Shown here piece by piece: positions 22,848 through 58,592 of a DNA stretch of 64,000 nucleotides. Position numbers and translations under genes: made by a program. The notes under the pieces were generated by a model. That model did not search any database. It was given only the letters and a program-made list of their open reading frames with translations, and was not told the DNA's origin. Each line of letters starts with the position of its first letter. Within the stretch, counting starts at the first letter, position 1. The stretch lies in contig NZ_AMXA01000002.1 in NCBI RefSeq assembly GCF_000310145.2, forward strand, positions 62,001 to 126,000, given 5' to 3'. Origin of the DNA: Thauera sp. 28 (GTDB taxonomy: Bacteria; Pseudomonadota; Gammaproteobacteria; Burkholderiales; Rhodocyclaceae).

Positions 22848-23276
22848 TCAGATCTCGAGAACTTGCGGCTGCTGAGCGGTATGCGGATGCGACGGCCCCG
22901 CATAGCACTTCAGCTTCTTCAGCATGGCGTAGCCCAGCGGGCCCTTCGGCAGCATGCCCTTCACCGCCTTTTCGAGCACACGCTCGGGGAAGCGCTGCTG
23001 GAGCTTGGTGAAGTTGGTTTCGTAGATACCGCCCGGGTAACCCGAGTGACGGTAGTACTTCTTGTCCTGCGCTTTGTTACCGGTCACGCGCAGCTTGTCG
23101 ACGTTGACAACGACGATGAAGTCGCCGGTATCGACGTGCGGGGTGTAGATAGCCTTGTGCTTGCCACGGAGGCGACGGGCGACTTCGGCGGCGAGACGGC
23201 CAAGCACCTTATCCGTGCCGTCGACAACGAACCAGTCGCGCTTGACCTCGTGCGGCTTGGCGGAAAACGTCTTCAT
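22848..23276 (-). CDS. rplM: 50S ribosomal protein L13
   Basis: 142 residues with the L13 signatures [21 protein letters not shown] and [23 protein letters not shown]. It is the first gene of the rplM-rpsI operon. A promoter with a perfect TTGACA lies upstream (23334-23363), and a GAGG site precedes the ATG. A small-RNA terminator at 23398-23428 sits only about 35 bp upstream of the promoter. Confidence 0.98.
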
Positions 23277-23397: not shown

Positions 23398-23428
23398 AAA
23401 AAAAAACGCAGTCCGCTAGGACTGCGTT
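23398..23428 (-). terminator. Intrinsic terminator of the candidate small RNA
   Basis: The arms AACGCAGTCC (23405-23414) and GGACTGCGTT (23419-23428) are perfectly complementary around GCTA. On the minus strand the stem runs into nine consecutive T (23406-23398). No minus-strand protein gene ends here, which is the main reason to suspect a non-coding transcript. Confidence 0.85.
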
Positions 23429-23510
23429 AAATCCACACCAAAGGAGGAGGGTGGAGGAGACACCATTTGGATCGGCGCGTCGTCTTCGATGCCGCGTCAG
23501 CGATCCGACT
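23398..23510 (-). ncRNA. Candidate small RNA with anti-Shine-Dalgarno motifs
   Basis: The predicted transcript of about 113 nt reads leftward from about 23510. Its parts are: (1) a 5' hairpin closed by GGAUCG (23506-23501) and CGAUCC (23474-23469), with a CGCG pairing inside; (2) a C-rich stretch at 23460-23441, UCUCCUCCACCCUCCUCCUU, holding two CUCCUCC motifs complementary to GGAGG ribosome-binding sites and flanked by CCAAA and UUUGG that can clasp it in a loop; (3) a 10-bp terminator hairpin with U9. A promoter with 17-bp spacing sits in the right place. There is no open reading frame of note. Anti-Shine-Dalgarno sRNAs with this design are known in alphaproteobacteria and reported in Burkholderiales; membership of those families is inference. 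Confidence 0.7.
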
Positions 23511-23517
23511 GAGGCGA

Positions 23518-23546
23518 ATTATGGCGAGACGAACCCCCTCGCGCAA
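23518..23546 (-). promoter_or_regulatory. Probable promoter of the candidate small RNA
   Basis: Minus strand TTGCGC (23546-23541) and CATAAT (23523-23518, five of six) are separated by exactly 17 bp. Upstream, 23550-23640 is a striking AT-rich patch that could act as an UP element. It contains TTGTGCATTGCA at 23554-23565. Confidence 0.6.
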
Positions 23547-23687
23547 GCAGTTTTTGTGCATTGCATTACAATTGTTTTGATTGTTCAATAGAGTATCCTT
23601 ATCGAAAAGCAGTATATTGTTTTATATCAAATTTTCACCCCATCCCGGCCTAGTCAAAGCGCTCGAACCTCTAGCCCATGATTCCAG

Positions 23688-23723
23688 TGCGGTCTATTTT
23701 TGTGCACCGCATGAATACGGTGC
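23688..23723. repeat. Two interlocking inverted repeats upstream of the OsmC-family gene
   Basis: TGCGGT (23688-23693) pairs with ACCGCA (23706-23711), and GCACCG (23704-23709) pairs with CGGTGC (23718-23723). The right arm of the first repeat overlaps the left arm of the second. They may be alternative operator sites or a switchable RNA fold. From 23566 to 23904 I see no gene; the open frames there look random. Confidence 0.4.
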
Positions 23724-23904: not shown

Positions 23905-24324
23905 ATGGAATGCACGATCAAATGGCTTGACGGGATGAGCTTCGTCGCCGAGACCGGAACGGGGCACATGGTGACGATGGACGGCGCCCCTGAGGCGGGA
24001 GGCCGCAATCTCGCTCCTCGACCGATGGAGCTCATGCTCGCGGGCGCAGGCGGCTGCACGGCCTTCGATGTCGTGCTGATCCTCAAGCGTGGGCGGCACG
24101 ACGTGCGCGGCTGCACCGTGCGCCTCGAGGCCGAACGCGCAGACACCGACCCCAAGGTATTCACCCGCATCCGCTTCATCTATACCGTGAGCGGGCGCAA
24201 GCTCAAGCGCGAAAGCGTCGAACGCGCAATCCACCTTTCCGCAGAGAAGTACTGCTCAGCCTCGATCATGCTCGGCAAGACTGCCGAGATCAGTCACGAA
24301 CTGGAACTCGTCGAGGCCGACTGA
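23905..24324 (+). CDS. OsmC-family protein (YhfA-like)
   Basis: A 139-residue protein with the OsmC fold. It starts MECTIKWLDGMSFVAETGTGH and contains APRPMELMLAGAGGCTAFDVVLILKR, with the conserved cysteine in GGCTAFDV. A second cysteine occurs in HLSAEKYCSASIML. Two conserved cysteines are what reduce peroxides in Ohr/OsmC enzymes; this sequence is closest to the YhfA subgroup, whose role is uncertain. An AGGAGC site precedes the ATG. It is convergent with coq7. Confidence 0.9.
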   Translation: MECTIKWLDGMSFVAETGTGHMVTMDGAPEAGGRNLAPRPMELMLAGAGGCTAFDVVLILKRGRHDVRGCTVRLEAERADTDPKVFTRIRFIYTVSGRKLKRESVERAIHLSAEKYCSASIMLGKTAEISHELELVEAD

Positions 24325-24364: not shown

Positions 24365-24985
24365 TCAAACGCGATAGGTCACGGTGGTCATCAGCCTGGC
24401 CGCGAACTTCATCGCCCCCTTCACCGGCGCGGGAAGTTCATGTGCGCCCAGCCGCACGGCCATGTCCGCATGCTCGGCCTCGTCGACCTTCATCTGCTCC
24501 ACGATCGCACGCGAACGCGCATCGTCAGCCGGCAGCGTCTCCAGATGCCCCTTGAGATGGCGCTCCACCTGGCGCTCGGTCTCGGCCAGAAAACCGAGGT
24601 TCCAGCGATCGCCGAAACGCCCGGCAAGCAGACCAAGGGCGAGCGCCCCGCCGTACCACACCGGATTGAGCAGACTCTTGCGCCCGCCCAACTCTGCAAT
24701 ACGGCGCTCGGTCCAGGCCAGGTGCTCGGTCTCTTCCTGCGAAGCCTGACGCAAGGTGTCGCGGATCGCCGGATCACGCGACATCATGGCCTGCCCTTGA
24801 TAGAGAGCCTGCGCACAGATCTCGCCAACATGATTGATGCGCATGAGGGCTGCGGCGTGCCGACGCTCGGCGTCGTCAAGCATTGCATCCGGCACTCCCT
24901 CATCAGGCACGGGACGCACGCTGCGTGCCGGTGCGAGCACGGTACGCAAAGCCTTGTCGAACTCGATGATGGCACGATCAAGCAT
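24365..24985 (-). CDS. coq7: 3-Demethoxyubiquinol 3-hydroxylase (Coq7/UbiF type)
   Basis: A 206-residue di-iron carboxylate monooxygenase that hydroxylates the demethoxy-quinone intermediate in ubiquinone synthesis. The iron ligands lie in two EXXH-type motifs, [14 protein letters not shown] with [11 protein letters not shown] and [15 protein letters not shown], and a membrane-interacting hydrophobic segment ([14 protein letters not shown]) is in the middle. Betaproteobacteria often use Coq7 in place of the flavoprotein UbiF. Its ATG overlaps the stop of the upstream CNP1-like gene (TAATG), so the two are co-translated. Confidence 0.95.
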
Positions 24986-55710: not shown

Positions 55711-57933
55711 CTAGGCCGGATCCAGCTTGGCGACACCAAGCAGCAACCACTTCACGCCCGCAGGCCCGAAGTTGATCTGCACCTTGGCATCGGCACCGCT
55801 ACCCTCCGCGGCAACGATGACCCCCTGGCCGAACTTCGCATGACTGACAGCCTGGCCAATGCGCAGACCGTTAGGCAGCGTAGCGAATGAAGGCCGCGGC
55901 GCCCGCGCCACCTGCGCCTTGGCCGACGGCTTGAAATAGCCGCCCCCCATGCCGCCAGACGCGCCGCCTTGCACGGAACGCGCGCTTGGCGGCGTCAGCC
56001 ACTTGGTCAGCTCCGCCGGAATCTCCTCCAGGAAGCGCGAACGCAGGTTGTAGCGCGTCTGCCCGTGCAACATGCGACTTTGGGCAAAGCTCAGGTACAA
56101 GCGCTCACGCGCCCGCGTGACGGCCACGTACATCAGCCGGCGCTCCTCTTCCAGGCCATCGGTCTCGAGGATGCTGTTCTCGTGCGGAAACAGCCCCTCC
56201 TCCAAGCCGGACAGGAAGACGACATTGAATTCCAGCCCCTTGGCCGAATGCACCGTCATCAGCTGTACGGCATCAGCCCCCTGGTCAGCCTGGTGGTCAC
56301 CCGCCTCGAGCGAGGCATGGGCCAGGAAGTCGGCCAACAGCGCATGCGCCTGGGCGAGCGCATCGCCTGCGCCCGCTTGAGCCTGCGACTCAGCGAGGAA
56401 ATTGGCCGCAGCGTTGATCAACTCGTCGAGGTTCTCCAGGCGCTCTCGCCCCTCCTTGTCAGCCTTGTAGTGAGCACGCAGACCACTCATGTCGAGCACG
56501 TGATCGACCAGCTCCGGCAGCGGCAAACCCGCAGTGTCGCGACGCAAGTCCTCGATCAGGCGCACGAACTGGGCGAGCGAAGTGCCTGGCTTGCCGGTCA
56601 GATGCGGCACGGTGGCATACAGACTGGTGCTGTAGACGCGCGCGGCGTCGGTCAATACCTCGAGCGAACGCGCGCCAATGCCGCGGGTAGGAAAATTCAC
56701 CACGCGTGCGAATGAAGTGTCGTCGTCGGCGTTGGCGATCAGGCGCAGGTAGGCGAGCGCGTGTTTGATCTCCTGGCGCTCGAAGAAGCGCAGACCGCCA
56801 TACACGCGATAGGGAATCGCGGCCGAGAACAGCTGGTGCTCCAGCACCCGCGACTGCGCATTCGAGCGATACAACAGCGCGATCTCGCTGCGCAATGCAC
56901 CGTCACGCACCAGGGACTGAATCTCCTCGACAACCCAGCGCGCCTCATCACCGTCCGAGTAGGCCTCGAACACGCGGATCGGCTCGCCGGCCCCCTGGTC
57001 GGTCCACAGATTCTTCCCCAGACGGTTGCTGTTGTGGCGGATGATCGCGTTGGCAGCATCCAGGATATTGCTGTGCGAGCGATAGTTCTGCTCCAGGCGG
57101 ATCACGTTGTGCACGCGGAACTCGCGCTCGAAGTCACGGATGTTGCCGACCTCGGCGCCACGGAAGCGGTAGATGCTCTGGTCGTCGTCGCCGACGCAGA
57201 ACATCGCAGCACCGCCTTCGCGGCCTTCGTCGGCGAAAAGCTTCAACCAGCGATACTGCAGGCGGTTGGTGTCCTGGAATTCGTCGACAAGAATGTGGCG
57301 GAAACGGCGCTGGTAATGGCGGCGCAGTGGCTCATTGCGCTCGAGCAACTCATAGCTGCGCAAAAGCAACTCCGCAAAATCCACAACAGACTCGCGCTGG
57401 CACTGTGACTCATACTCCTGGTACAGCTGAACGCGCTGGCGGGTGTAGTCGTCCCAGGCCTCCACCGCGTGCGGCCGGTTGCCTGCTTCCTTCTGACCAT
57501 TGATGAAATGCTGCAACTCACGCGGCGGGAACTTCTCGTCGTCGACGTTGAGCGTCTTCAACAGACGCTTGATGGCGGCGAGCTGATCCCCCGAATCGAG
57601 GATCTGGAAAAGTTGAGGTAGCCCGGCATCCCGGTGGTGCGCTCGCAACAAGCGGTTGGCCAGGCCGTGAAAGGTACCGATCCACATGCCACGCGTACTG
57701 ACCGGCAACATCGCGGACAGACGGGCAAGCATTTCCTTGGCGGCTTTGTTGGTGAATGTAACAGCAAGAATGCCGGCGGGATCGACCTGGCCGGACTGGA
57801 CGAGCCATGCGATGCGAGTCGTGAGCACCCGGGTCTTGCCTGAGCCTGCACCGGCAAGGATGAGCGCGTGCTGAGGCGGCAGGCTCACAGCCTGCAGTTG
57901 TTCGGTATTCAAGTTGTCTAGGAGCGTGGACAT
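55711..57933 (-). CDS. uvrD: DNA helicase II (UvrD/Rep family)
   Basis: 740 residues, superfamily 1A 3'-5' DNA helicase of nucleotide excision and mismatch repair. Motif I is GAGSGKTRVL, Ia TFTNKAAKEML, II VDEFQDTN, III FCVGDDDQSIYRFRGAE, IV EQNYRSH, V TVHSAKGLEF and VI YVAVTRARERLYLSFA, all in order. The UvrD C-terminal Tudor-like domain (IGQAVSHAKFGQGVIVAAEGSG) is present, which Rep lacks. ATG at 57933 follows GAGGAACCACG. TACAAT (57961-57956) is a probable -10 giving a short leader. No LexA-type CTGT-N8-ACAG box was seen. Confidence 0.97.
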   Translation of the reverse strand: MSTLLDNLNTEQLQAVSLPPQHALILAGAGSGKTRVLTTRIAWLVQSGQVDPAGILAVTFTNKAAKEMLARLSAMLPVSTRGMWIGTFHGLANRLLRAHHRDAGLPQLFQILDSGDQLAAIKRLLKTLNVDDEKFPPRELQHFINGQKEAGNRPHAVEAWDDYTRQRVQLYQEYESQCQRESVVDFAELLLRSYELLERNEPLRRHYQRRFRHILVDEFQDTNRLQYRWLKLFADEGREGGAAMFCVGDDDQSIYRFRGAEVGNIRDFEREFRVHNVIRLEQNYRSHSNILDAANAIIRHNSNRLGKNLWTDQGAGEPIRVFEAYSDGDEARWVVEEIQSLVRDGALRSEIALLYRSNAQSRVLEHQLFSAAIPYRVYGGLRFFERQEIKHALAYLRLIANADDDTSFARVVNFPTRGIGARSLEVLTDAARVYSTSLYATVPHLTGKPGTSLAQFVRLIEDLRRDTAGLPLPELVDHVLDMSGLRAHYKADKEGRERLENLDELINAAANFLAESQAQAGAGDALAQAHALLADFLAHASLEAGDHQADQGADAVQLMTVHSAKGLEFNVVFLSGLEEGLFPHENSILETDGLEEERRLMYVAVTRARERLYLSFAQSRMLHGQTRYNLRSRFLEEIPAELTKWLTPPSARSVQGGASGGMGGGYFKPSAKAQVARAPRPSFATLPNGLRIGQAVSHAKFGQGVIVAAEGSGADAKVQINFGPAGVKWLLLGVAKLDPA

Positions 57934-58250
57934 CGTGGTTCCTCTGCAAGCCGGCATTGTATCGGCGACACCCGGGCGTTACCCGGAAGCTGCCGCGAAG
58001 ATGGATGTTGCGTCGCAGCAACAGCACCTTTGCGCAGCGTTCCTTTTGCGCTAGATTTGAATTGTGCATTGCAACAAACGGCTGGCGTACCGTGGAACTT
58101 TTCACAGACGTCAGCGCCTAATTTGCGCACAATCAAGGAAAACTACAGGACTGCCCTGCATATTGCACCACAGCATACGAAGCGTGGTGGCGAGCCCAGA
58201 AGGCAGGCCATGATTTTTCGAGCCCTACCCGGCCCGACAGGAGAACTGAC
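57934..58250. other. Intergenic region between uvrD and the small unknown gene
   Basis: 317 bp between divergent genes. It contains the uvrD -10 (57956-57961), three TTTGCGC-type repeats (58027-58035, 58042-58051 and 58122-58128), and TTGTGCATTGCA (58062-58073), the same 12-mer as at 23554. No open frame is convincing. A promoter for the gene at 58251 is not obvious. Confidence 0.5.
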
Positions 58251-58592
58251 ATGAAGACCCCGAAACTACTGCCCTGGTACGCACGCAAGGCCGGCGTCCC
58301 CCTGGAGCGAGCCGAAGCCCTCTGGCGCAAGGCCGTGCGCGAAGCGACCAGCGAAACCGGCTGGGTTGGCAACGCCGAATACTGGGGTGCGGCGATGGAT
58401 CACTTCCAGCGCCTGCTCAAGGAAGAGCGCAATACCCTGTGCGCACCGCAGATGCTGCCCTACGTCCGTAGCCAGAACCGCATGTGGCGCCTGCCGCTGC
58501 TGGCCATGGAGGACATGATTTCGGCCGTGCATGCAAACTGGCAGCGCAATCATGCTGCCTCCAGCGGCAAGAACGCCTGCCGCGTGGCCTGA
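58251..58592 (+). CDS. Small conserved protein of unknown function
   Basis: 113 residues, cytoplasmic, basic. It begins MKTPKLLPWYARKAGVPLERAEALWRKAVREATSETGWVGNAEYWGAAMDHFQRLLKEE. A strong ACAGGAGAACTGAC spacing precedes the ATG, so translation is likely. I do not recognise a family; the KLLPWYARKAGVP and ETGWVGNAEYW stretches look conserved. It is a single gene, bounded by the 317-bp region and by the terminator at 58657-58689. Confidence 0.8.
   Translation: MKTPKLLPWYARKAGVPLERAEALWRKAVREATSETGWVGNAEYWGAAMDHFQRLLKEERNTLCAPQMLPYVRSQNRMWRLPLLAMEDMISAVHANWQRNHAASSGKNACRVA

Follow-up and report, generated by a model that had tools for sequence, protein, structure and literature searches.

The RNA family RF02278, entitled 'Betaproteobacteria toxic sRNA', reportedly received its name in a 2012 study by Kimelman, and NcS27, one of its double-hairpin RNAs in Burkholderia cenocepacia (NcS03, NcS05, NcS27 and NcS62), is said to have been treated in a 2019 study by Sass. 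NcS27 is located between BCAL3348a and BCAL3349 (PMC4603805), and a list of ribosomal protein genes includes BCAL3348 (PMC5688073). A longer 5′ end with a processing site is described for NcS27, its overexpression slows growth in B. cenocepacia, and the regulation of RF02278 RNAs is called unknown in the same paper (PMC5688073). S17 of Bordetella pertussis, a close relative, has a 190-nt long form that is cut to a short form, S17S; its 27-nt 5′ region is conserved across Betaproteobacteria including Aromatoleum, and the targets reported for it are a sigma-54 activator and transporters. S17S impaired the growth of E. coli only modestly, on entering stationary phase, and the authors postulate an unnamed factor that represses the promoter in one mode and releases it in the other (PMC11722255). 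Other CU-rich RNAs complementary to ribosome-binding sites are ar14 (RF02344) of alphaproteobacteria and the sibling sRNAs NmsR/NgncR of Neisseria (RF02877), of which NmsR acts on metabolism (PMC5688073).

We found an RNA of the RF02278 type in Thauera sp. 28, within a stretch of 64,000 nucleotides that was analysed as a whole and is called the window here. Its gene, read from the sequence, is situated on the minus strand between a divergent OsmC-family gene and rplM, with 121 bp between the 3′ end of the sRNA and rplM (Table 1). The match extended over the whole RF02278 model (positions 1-64 of 64, E = 4.8e-13), so that by sequence its identity as a member of this known family is secure, and the preliminary description of a minus-strand sRNA gene that has CUCCUCC twice between a promoter-like site and a U9 terminator was confirmed. 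That description was also right to see, upstream of rplM, a seemingly independent non-coding RNA that carries two anti-Shine-Dalgarno motifs. It was incomplete in leaving the family unassigned, since the covariance-model search that it proposed leads to a described one, and the likeness that it saw to alphaproteobacterial RNAs holds for function only, the score against ar14 being 22.3 bits where the cut-off is 58.8. NmsRb (RF02877), at 30.4 bits against a cut-off of 52, was rejected as well.

In common with the RF02278 model, the window sRNA has two hairpins, the second being the terminator, and anti-Shine-Dalgarno CU-rich sequence in both the 5′ end and a loop; the order in the 65-nt RNA is the CU-rich 5′ end, hairpin 1 with the CU-rich loop, the terminator hairpin and U9. 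Like S17S of B. pertussis, this 65-nt stretch may represent a processed short form. To the model the window sRNA adds a predicted 49-nt 5′ leader with a conserved hairpin of its own. The promoter with 17-bp spacing, the GGAUCG/CGAUCC hairpin and the U9 terminator that had been proposed can each be read directly, and all three have counterparts across the genus, where the −10 element, the CTTGC block, the leader hairpin arms (also found in the fold) and the terminator (also picked up by a mechanical scan) are kept. A consensus promoter scan did not report TTGCGC-17-CATAAT, because TTGCGC agrees with TTGACA at only three of six positions. A coding origin was considered for a 53-aa open reading frame across the region (23427-23588) and rejected; leader lengths within the genus differ by non-multiples of three.

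Table 1. Features of the sRNA locus, in window positions.
Feature	Position	Strand	Basis or remark
sRNA gene	~23398..23511	-	read from sequence
Predicted sigma-70 promoter, TTGCGC-17-CATAAT	23518..23546	-	sequence; CTTGC and (G/C)ATAAT kept in genus
-35-like TTGCGC	23541..23546	-	17-nt spacer to -10
-10 CATAAT	23518..23523	-	
5′ leader module, conserved CAGTCGGATCG...CGATCCAA hairpin, loop variable	23463..23511	-	genus alignments, fold
Leader hairpin arm GGATCG	23501..23506	-	opposite CGATCC
Leader hairpin arm CGATCC	23469..23474	-	opposite GGATCG
RF02278 double-hairpin RNA, 65 nt	23398..23462	-	cmscan 67.9 bits (cut-off 50), fold z -6.45, covariation
33-nt core without variation, holding the anti-Shine-Dalgarno motif CUCCUCC twice	23430..23462	-	identical in 30 genus copies
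First CTCCTCC	23453..23459	-	
Second CTCCTCC	23443..23449	-	
Terminator AACGCAGTCC-TAGC-GGACTGCGTT and nine T	ends at 23398	-	
Proximal PhaR-type palindrome, TGCAATGCA on minus strand	23557..23565		centre ~-50 from predicted start
Distal PhaR-type palindrome, TGCGGTGCA on minus strand	23703..23711		146 bp upstream of proximal site
rplM (ribosomal protein L13), downstream neighbour	22848..23276	-	own promoter-like site 23363-23334
OsmC-family gene, divergent upstream neighbour	23905..24324	+	Pfam OsmC; synteny kept in most linked loci
coq7	24365..24985	-	Pfam COQ7; also neighbour of Bordetella S17 locus (PMC11722255)

The 33-nt core carries no change in 30 locus copies from 29 genomes of the genus (G027 has two), the copies having been excised by the exact core and all 30 intended ones having passed; the C-rich stretch thus does not vary freely. 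Elsewhere in the same intergenic region, positions 23792-23743 and 23692-23643 are unconserved in the genus, with a mean identity of 0.43. None of 200 shuffles was as stable as the 65-nt form (z = -6.45); for the 114-nt form stability was moderate (z = -2.69, 3 of 200 shuffles equally stable). Hairpin 1, UCCAC(CC)...GG-GUGGA, shows compensatory changes. When the structure taken from the window's own fold was laid over 27 divergent copies picked by hand, 86.3% of cells were paired in the two hairpins, with double changes at 9 of 13 pairs and 52 double-change cells against 17 in shuffles, whereas slid structures paired in just 28-44% of cells. A CCAAA/UUUGG clasp around the C-rich stretch, which had also been proposed, is found neither in the minimum-energy folds nor in the Rfam consensus, and its CCAAA varies in some relatives. 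The earlier interpretation is upheld in part: as to the candidate sRNA, its motifs and their conservation, and not as to the clasp and the open family assignment.

We examined the distribution of the family in a first set of 61 genomes, comprising that of the window together with 60 relatives (29 of the genus, 8 of other genera of the family and 24 of other families). A search with filters that lose some weak matches found RF02278 in 50 of the 61 genomes, above the cut-off in 41, and gave no match in 14 control genomes. The matches numbered 117, of which 76 were above the cut-off, 23 at 35-50 bits and 18 below 35 bits; one of them is a second copy in the window's genome, on another contig (L001). 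Some genomes carry eight to ten matches, several of them clustered: G043 has nine, and G065, one of the named genomes treated below, has ten, with six copies within about 14 kb on its contig 42. Ten weak matches of 28-39 bits (L065, L109, L114, L116, L118, L120, L122, L126, L129 and L131) share (C/T)GTCTCCTCC, have a seemingly different hairpin and no palindrome of the kind treated below within 300 nt upstream; they may form a separate, related RNA family.

The linkage to rplM is widespread. A copy on the same strand within 500 bp upstream of rplM was present in 27 of 29 genus genomes, 4 of 8 from other genera of the family and 7 of 24 from other families; in the two genus exceptions the sRNA is at a contig end (G002) or 1955 bp from rplM (G028). 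In most loci the linked copy has OsmC as a neighbour, and in many it has coq7. Twelve named genomes, picked by hand from palindrome-containing matches and hence biased towards the palindrome, were inspected too. rplM was found in 11 of them and a linked copy, with distances by subtraction, in 8 of these: Burkholderia guangdongensis, Paraburkholderia rhizosphaerae, Caballeronia arationis, Trinickia mobilis, Pararobbsia silviterrae, Zoogloea ramigera, a Dechloromonas and an Azoarcus. No rplM-linked copy was found in the Massilia, Janthinobacterium and Duganella genomes of this set. The nearest named rplM locus seen was that of Azoarcus sp. TTM-91, with 95% RplM identity. B. guangdongensis and its allies have rplM-linked copies like that of the window. 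S17 shares the coq7 neighbour with the window and, unlike the window sRNA, is described between a glycosyltransferase gene and coq7 with no rplM beside it (PMC11722255). Because NcS27 lies next to BCAL3348a, with BCAL3348 counted among ribosomal protein genes, and S17 beside coq7, we take the window sRNA to be the positional counterpart of both by synteny, as far as their published descriptions go.

The most informative new feature, missing from the preliminary description, is the palindromic sites upstream of the sRNA. TGCRNYGCA recurs in front of RF02278 copies, and it is the published palindrome of PhaR, the regulator of PHB granules, given as YTKNTGCRNYGCANMAR in R. eutropha (PMC12849132), as TGCRNYGCASMA in B. 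diazoefficiens (PMC6201568) and, with a footprint, as TGNTGCN3GCAA in H. seropedicae (PMC3206438). H. seropedicae SmR1, whose PhaR is called PhbF (PMC3206438), is also described as having four RF02278 RNAs (PMC7011215). Two exact sites stand near the sRNA promoter in the window, as a member of the PhaR regulon would have them. Within 300 nt upstream, the palindrome was present at 68 of the 76 copies above the cut-off, against 4.6 expected from a local background of mostly coding DNA; these were 55 of 56 genus copies, which are mutually non-independent, and 13 of 20 copies outside the genus. Counted by genome, at least one palindrome-bearing copy occurred in 29 of 29 of the genus and in 9 of 12 others. 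Of the weaker matches, 13 of the 23 that score 35-50 bits had it, as did 2 of the 18 with less than 35 bits. The reversed palindrome was found upstream of 1 of the 76 copies; as it is a rarer word, found 18 times in these loci where the palindrome is found 160 times, the local background is the fair comparison. The eight copies with no site within 300 nt are those of G045 and G050, four of G043, one of G056 and one of G004. In G043, which encodes PhaR, five of the nine copies have no site within 300 nt and seven have none within 130 nt.

A further set, 24 copies chosen by core sequence alone in 250 genomes of the order, had the palindrome within 140 nt upstream in 23 cases; since G000, G038, G039 and G046 were already in the first set, this adds 19 of 20 new copies. 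The exception, L312, has no palindrome although its genome, G206, has PhaR. The set includes five loci adjacent to coq7 (L314-L318) that, as described for S17, have no rplM in the ~3 kb taken, and four of them (L314, L315, L316 and L318) have their palindrome 114-133 nt upstream of the core, where it coincides with the −35 position of a promoter-like site that would serve a longer form. A scan of named records returned at least 120 stretches, of which 80 among the matches listed were counted, sorted as betaproteobacterial or not by record titles. The palindrome stood 25-26 nt before the core in 40 of 42 betaproteobacterial and 0 of 39 other matches among those listed, and a T-run followed the core in 40 of 42 and 3 of 39, respectively; the search pattern itself contained the palindrome and asked for a short distance, so only the spacing pattern counts as evidence. 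In the 12 named genomes, 30 of 65 RF02278 matches were taken as loci and 16 of the 30 had the palindrome within 130 nt, six being unscored with a varying core. The rplM copy of B. guangdongensis differs from that of the window in having its nearest palindrome only at −287.

Within the genus, the proximal site is exact in 26 of 30 copies, the distal site in 22, and at least one of them in all 30; the 18 copies that hold both space them 145-146 bp apart without exception. The centre of the proximal site takes 10 different RNY forms around constant TGC/GCA arms, and in the four copies with no exact proximal site CGC replaces TGC. Here the proximal site is just upstream of the −35, not on it. In DNA as GC-rich as this the palindrome is common, the whole window holding 18 occurrences where 13.9 are expected. 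A second pair in the window (58009-58017 and 58065-58073), 56 bp apart, lies between a UvrD-type helicase gene (55711-57957, minus strand) and a short open reading frame (58251-58592, plus strand), and a 56-bp spacing is also seen before a phasin-domain gene of the same genome in L133.

Other elements share the control region. The stretch 23630-23587, between the two palindromes, holds a box, TTGATATAAAACAA here and TTGAGATAAATCAA in some relatives, that the genus tends to keep and that we take to be of the FNR/ANR type, together with an inverted repeat GATAAG-N5-CTTATC that tends to be kept as well and is imperfect in the window; both may have a part in the control of the sRNA or of the divergent OsmC gene. 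The distal palindrome is adjoined by an inverted repeat TACGG-CA-CCGTA (23727-23716), whose outer bases are kept in many genus copies.

The regulator that a PhaR regulon needs is encoded in the window's genome (G000:C1:189231-189410, E 1.3e-30, domains PHB_acc and PHB_acc_N). The palindrome was found in front of phaR itself and of three of the five phasin-domain genes of this genome, and not in the loci of the other two; a first Pfam pass over open reading frames beside palindromes of this genome gave no match for 6 of 10. PhaR is present in 171 of the 250 genomes of the order, in 24 of 24 holders of the core against 147 of 226 others (p = 6e-5). Across the 61 genomes, 48 have both RF02278 and PhaR, 2 the sRNA only, 5 PhaR only and 6 neither (p = 2e-4), the co-occurrence being weak among the 24 genomes of other families alone (p = 0.055). 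G045 and G050, the two genomes with RF02278 above the cut-off and no PhaR match, are also ones whose copies have no palindrome; one copy each in G056, G004 and G206 (L312) has none although PhaR is present. G057, a genome of another family, has a weak RF02278 match (L069, C1:2386873-2386951, 33.1 bits) at a distance of about 700 bp from its phaR domain (C1:2385983-2386162).

A precedent for such control exists in MmgR of Sinorhizobium meliloti, an sRNA that is repressed by PhaR (AniA) and has a PhaR site in its promoter; unlike the window sRNA, it is alphaproteobacterial, belongs to family alpha-r8 and lowers phasins (PMC12542648, PMC8401924). Term look-up found no mention of PhaR in the main texts of PMC5688073, PMC4603805, PMC11722255 and PMC10987360, and no title or abstract start among the matches listed for PhaR and sRNAs drew the link. 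A motif upstream of three of the four copies is given in a supplementary figure of PMC5688073, and the palindrome itself may already have been noticed there. The control region with its PhaR-type sites appears new, the RNA itself being a new member of a known family.

What the RNA may act on was approached through its 5′ end, UGUCUCCUC, which is complementary to GAGGAGACA. The latter stands 1-9 nt before ATG at 14 sites of the genome, where the permuted word GAGGAGCAA and the backward pattern give 2 sites each, and 13 of the 14 sites lead open frames of at least 163 aa. By Pfam, 7 of these 13 predicted targets seem to serve the uptake or metabolism of carbon: two DctP-type solute-binding proteins, a xanthine/uracil-type permease, a PQQ dehydrogenase, a TPP enzyme and two transketolase-N proteins, presumably pyruvate dehydrogenase E1 by their N-termini. 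A sigma-54 response regulator is a further predicted target, and of the remaining five one has no Pfam match, with a sulfatase, a DUF1254/DUF1214 protein, an epimerase-family protein and a YCF48-like protein making up the rest. Inspection by eye of the ribosome-binding sites of phaR and the five phasin-domain genes revealed no full complementary word. The predicted classes resemble those reported for S17 (PMC11722255) and NcS27 (PMC10987360).

On these grounds we consider it quite probable that the window sRNA is an rplM-linked RF02278 anti-Shine-Dalgarno RNA that acts in trans on carbon genes and is governed by PhaR through the two palindromes. Its own promoter would give an RNA of about 114 nt, perhaps trimmed to the 65-nt form, whose CU-rich 5′ end and loop would pair with GGAGG-type ribosome-binding sites and lower the translation of carbon-uptake and carbon-metabolism mRNAs. 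With little PHB in the cell, PhaR would be bound at both palindromes of the sRNA promoter; with much PHB it would move from DNA to the granules and the sRNA would be made, acting at high carbon storage as a brake on further uptake. Both PhaR control and its sign are our inference from the sites; the proximal site of the window copy, just upstream of the −35, would allow either sign there, with repression favoured.

The opposite sign deserves consideration, although we regard it as unlikely: PhaR would activate this copy, and the RNA, made when storage is empty, would be a starvation brake. With sites at about −50 and −196, the copy resembles the phaP3 promoter of R. eutropha, which is activated and has predicted sites at about −70 and −200 (PMC12849132), and NcS27 is reported to rise on starvation (PMC5688073). 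However, glucose medium likewise raises the levels of NcS27, NcS03 and NcS05 (PMC5688073), the authors of the S17 study infer derepression by their unnamed factor (PMC11722255), and the site 25-26 nt before the core in 40 of 42 betaproteobacterial matches among those listed, in a scan that asked for a short distance, is on the −35, the position of a repressor. Somewhat more doubtful still is an RF02278 anti-Shine-Dalgarno repressor with no link to PHB, its palindrome being bound by another regulator or being a mere shared −35 element. Such a reading would suit the overlap of palindrome and −35 position in many copies and the copies that have no palindrome despite PhaR, but it does not account well for a proximal site that in the window's genus is separate from the −35 and yet kept, for a second site often 145-146 bp away, for the same palindrome before phaR and three of five phasin-domain genes, or for PhaR in every one of the 24 core-holders. 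A role of the element in cis, as leader or attenuator of rplM, is most improbable and was rejected: in 38 of 61 genomes (27 + 4 + 7) it does precede rplM on the same strand at a distance of 83-264 bp, but a strong terminator is followed by a separate rplM promoter-like site in a conserved block, the RNA of G028 is 1955 bp from rplM, and the paralogues L001 and L314-L318 have no rplM in the ~3 kb taken.

The proposed repression by PhaR, relieved as PHB accumulates, may extend beyond the window. We think it likely that across Betaproteobacteria the RF02278 anti-Shine-Dalgarno sRNAs constitute a branch of the PhaR regulon, in which granules would titrate PhaR off the promoters, redundant RNAs would shut down nutrient uptake and central metabolism, and PhaR would be the unnamed repressor of S17. 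The conserved PhaR-type sites suggest, from the DNA alone, a link of carbon storage to the shutting down of nutrient uptake. RF02278 is widespread in Betaproteobacteria (50 of the 61 genomes examined), and a PhaR-type site before most copies names a candidate regulator and a signal, stored PHB, for the family. If true, this would have a bearing on bioplastic production, as the brake would act while cells store polymer.
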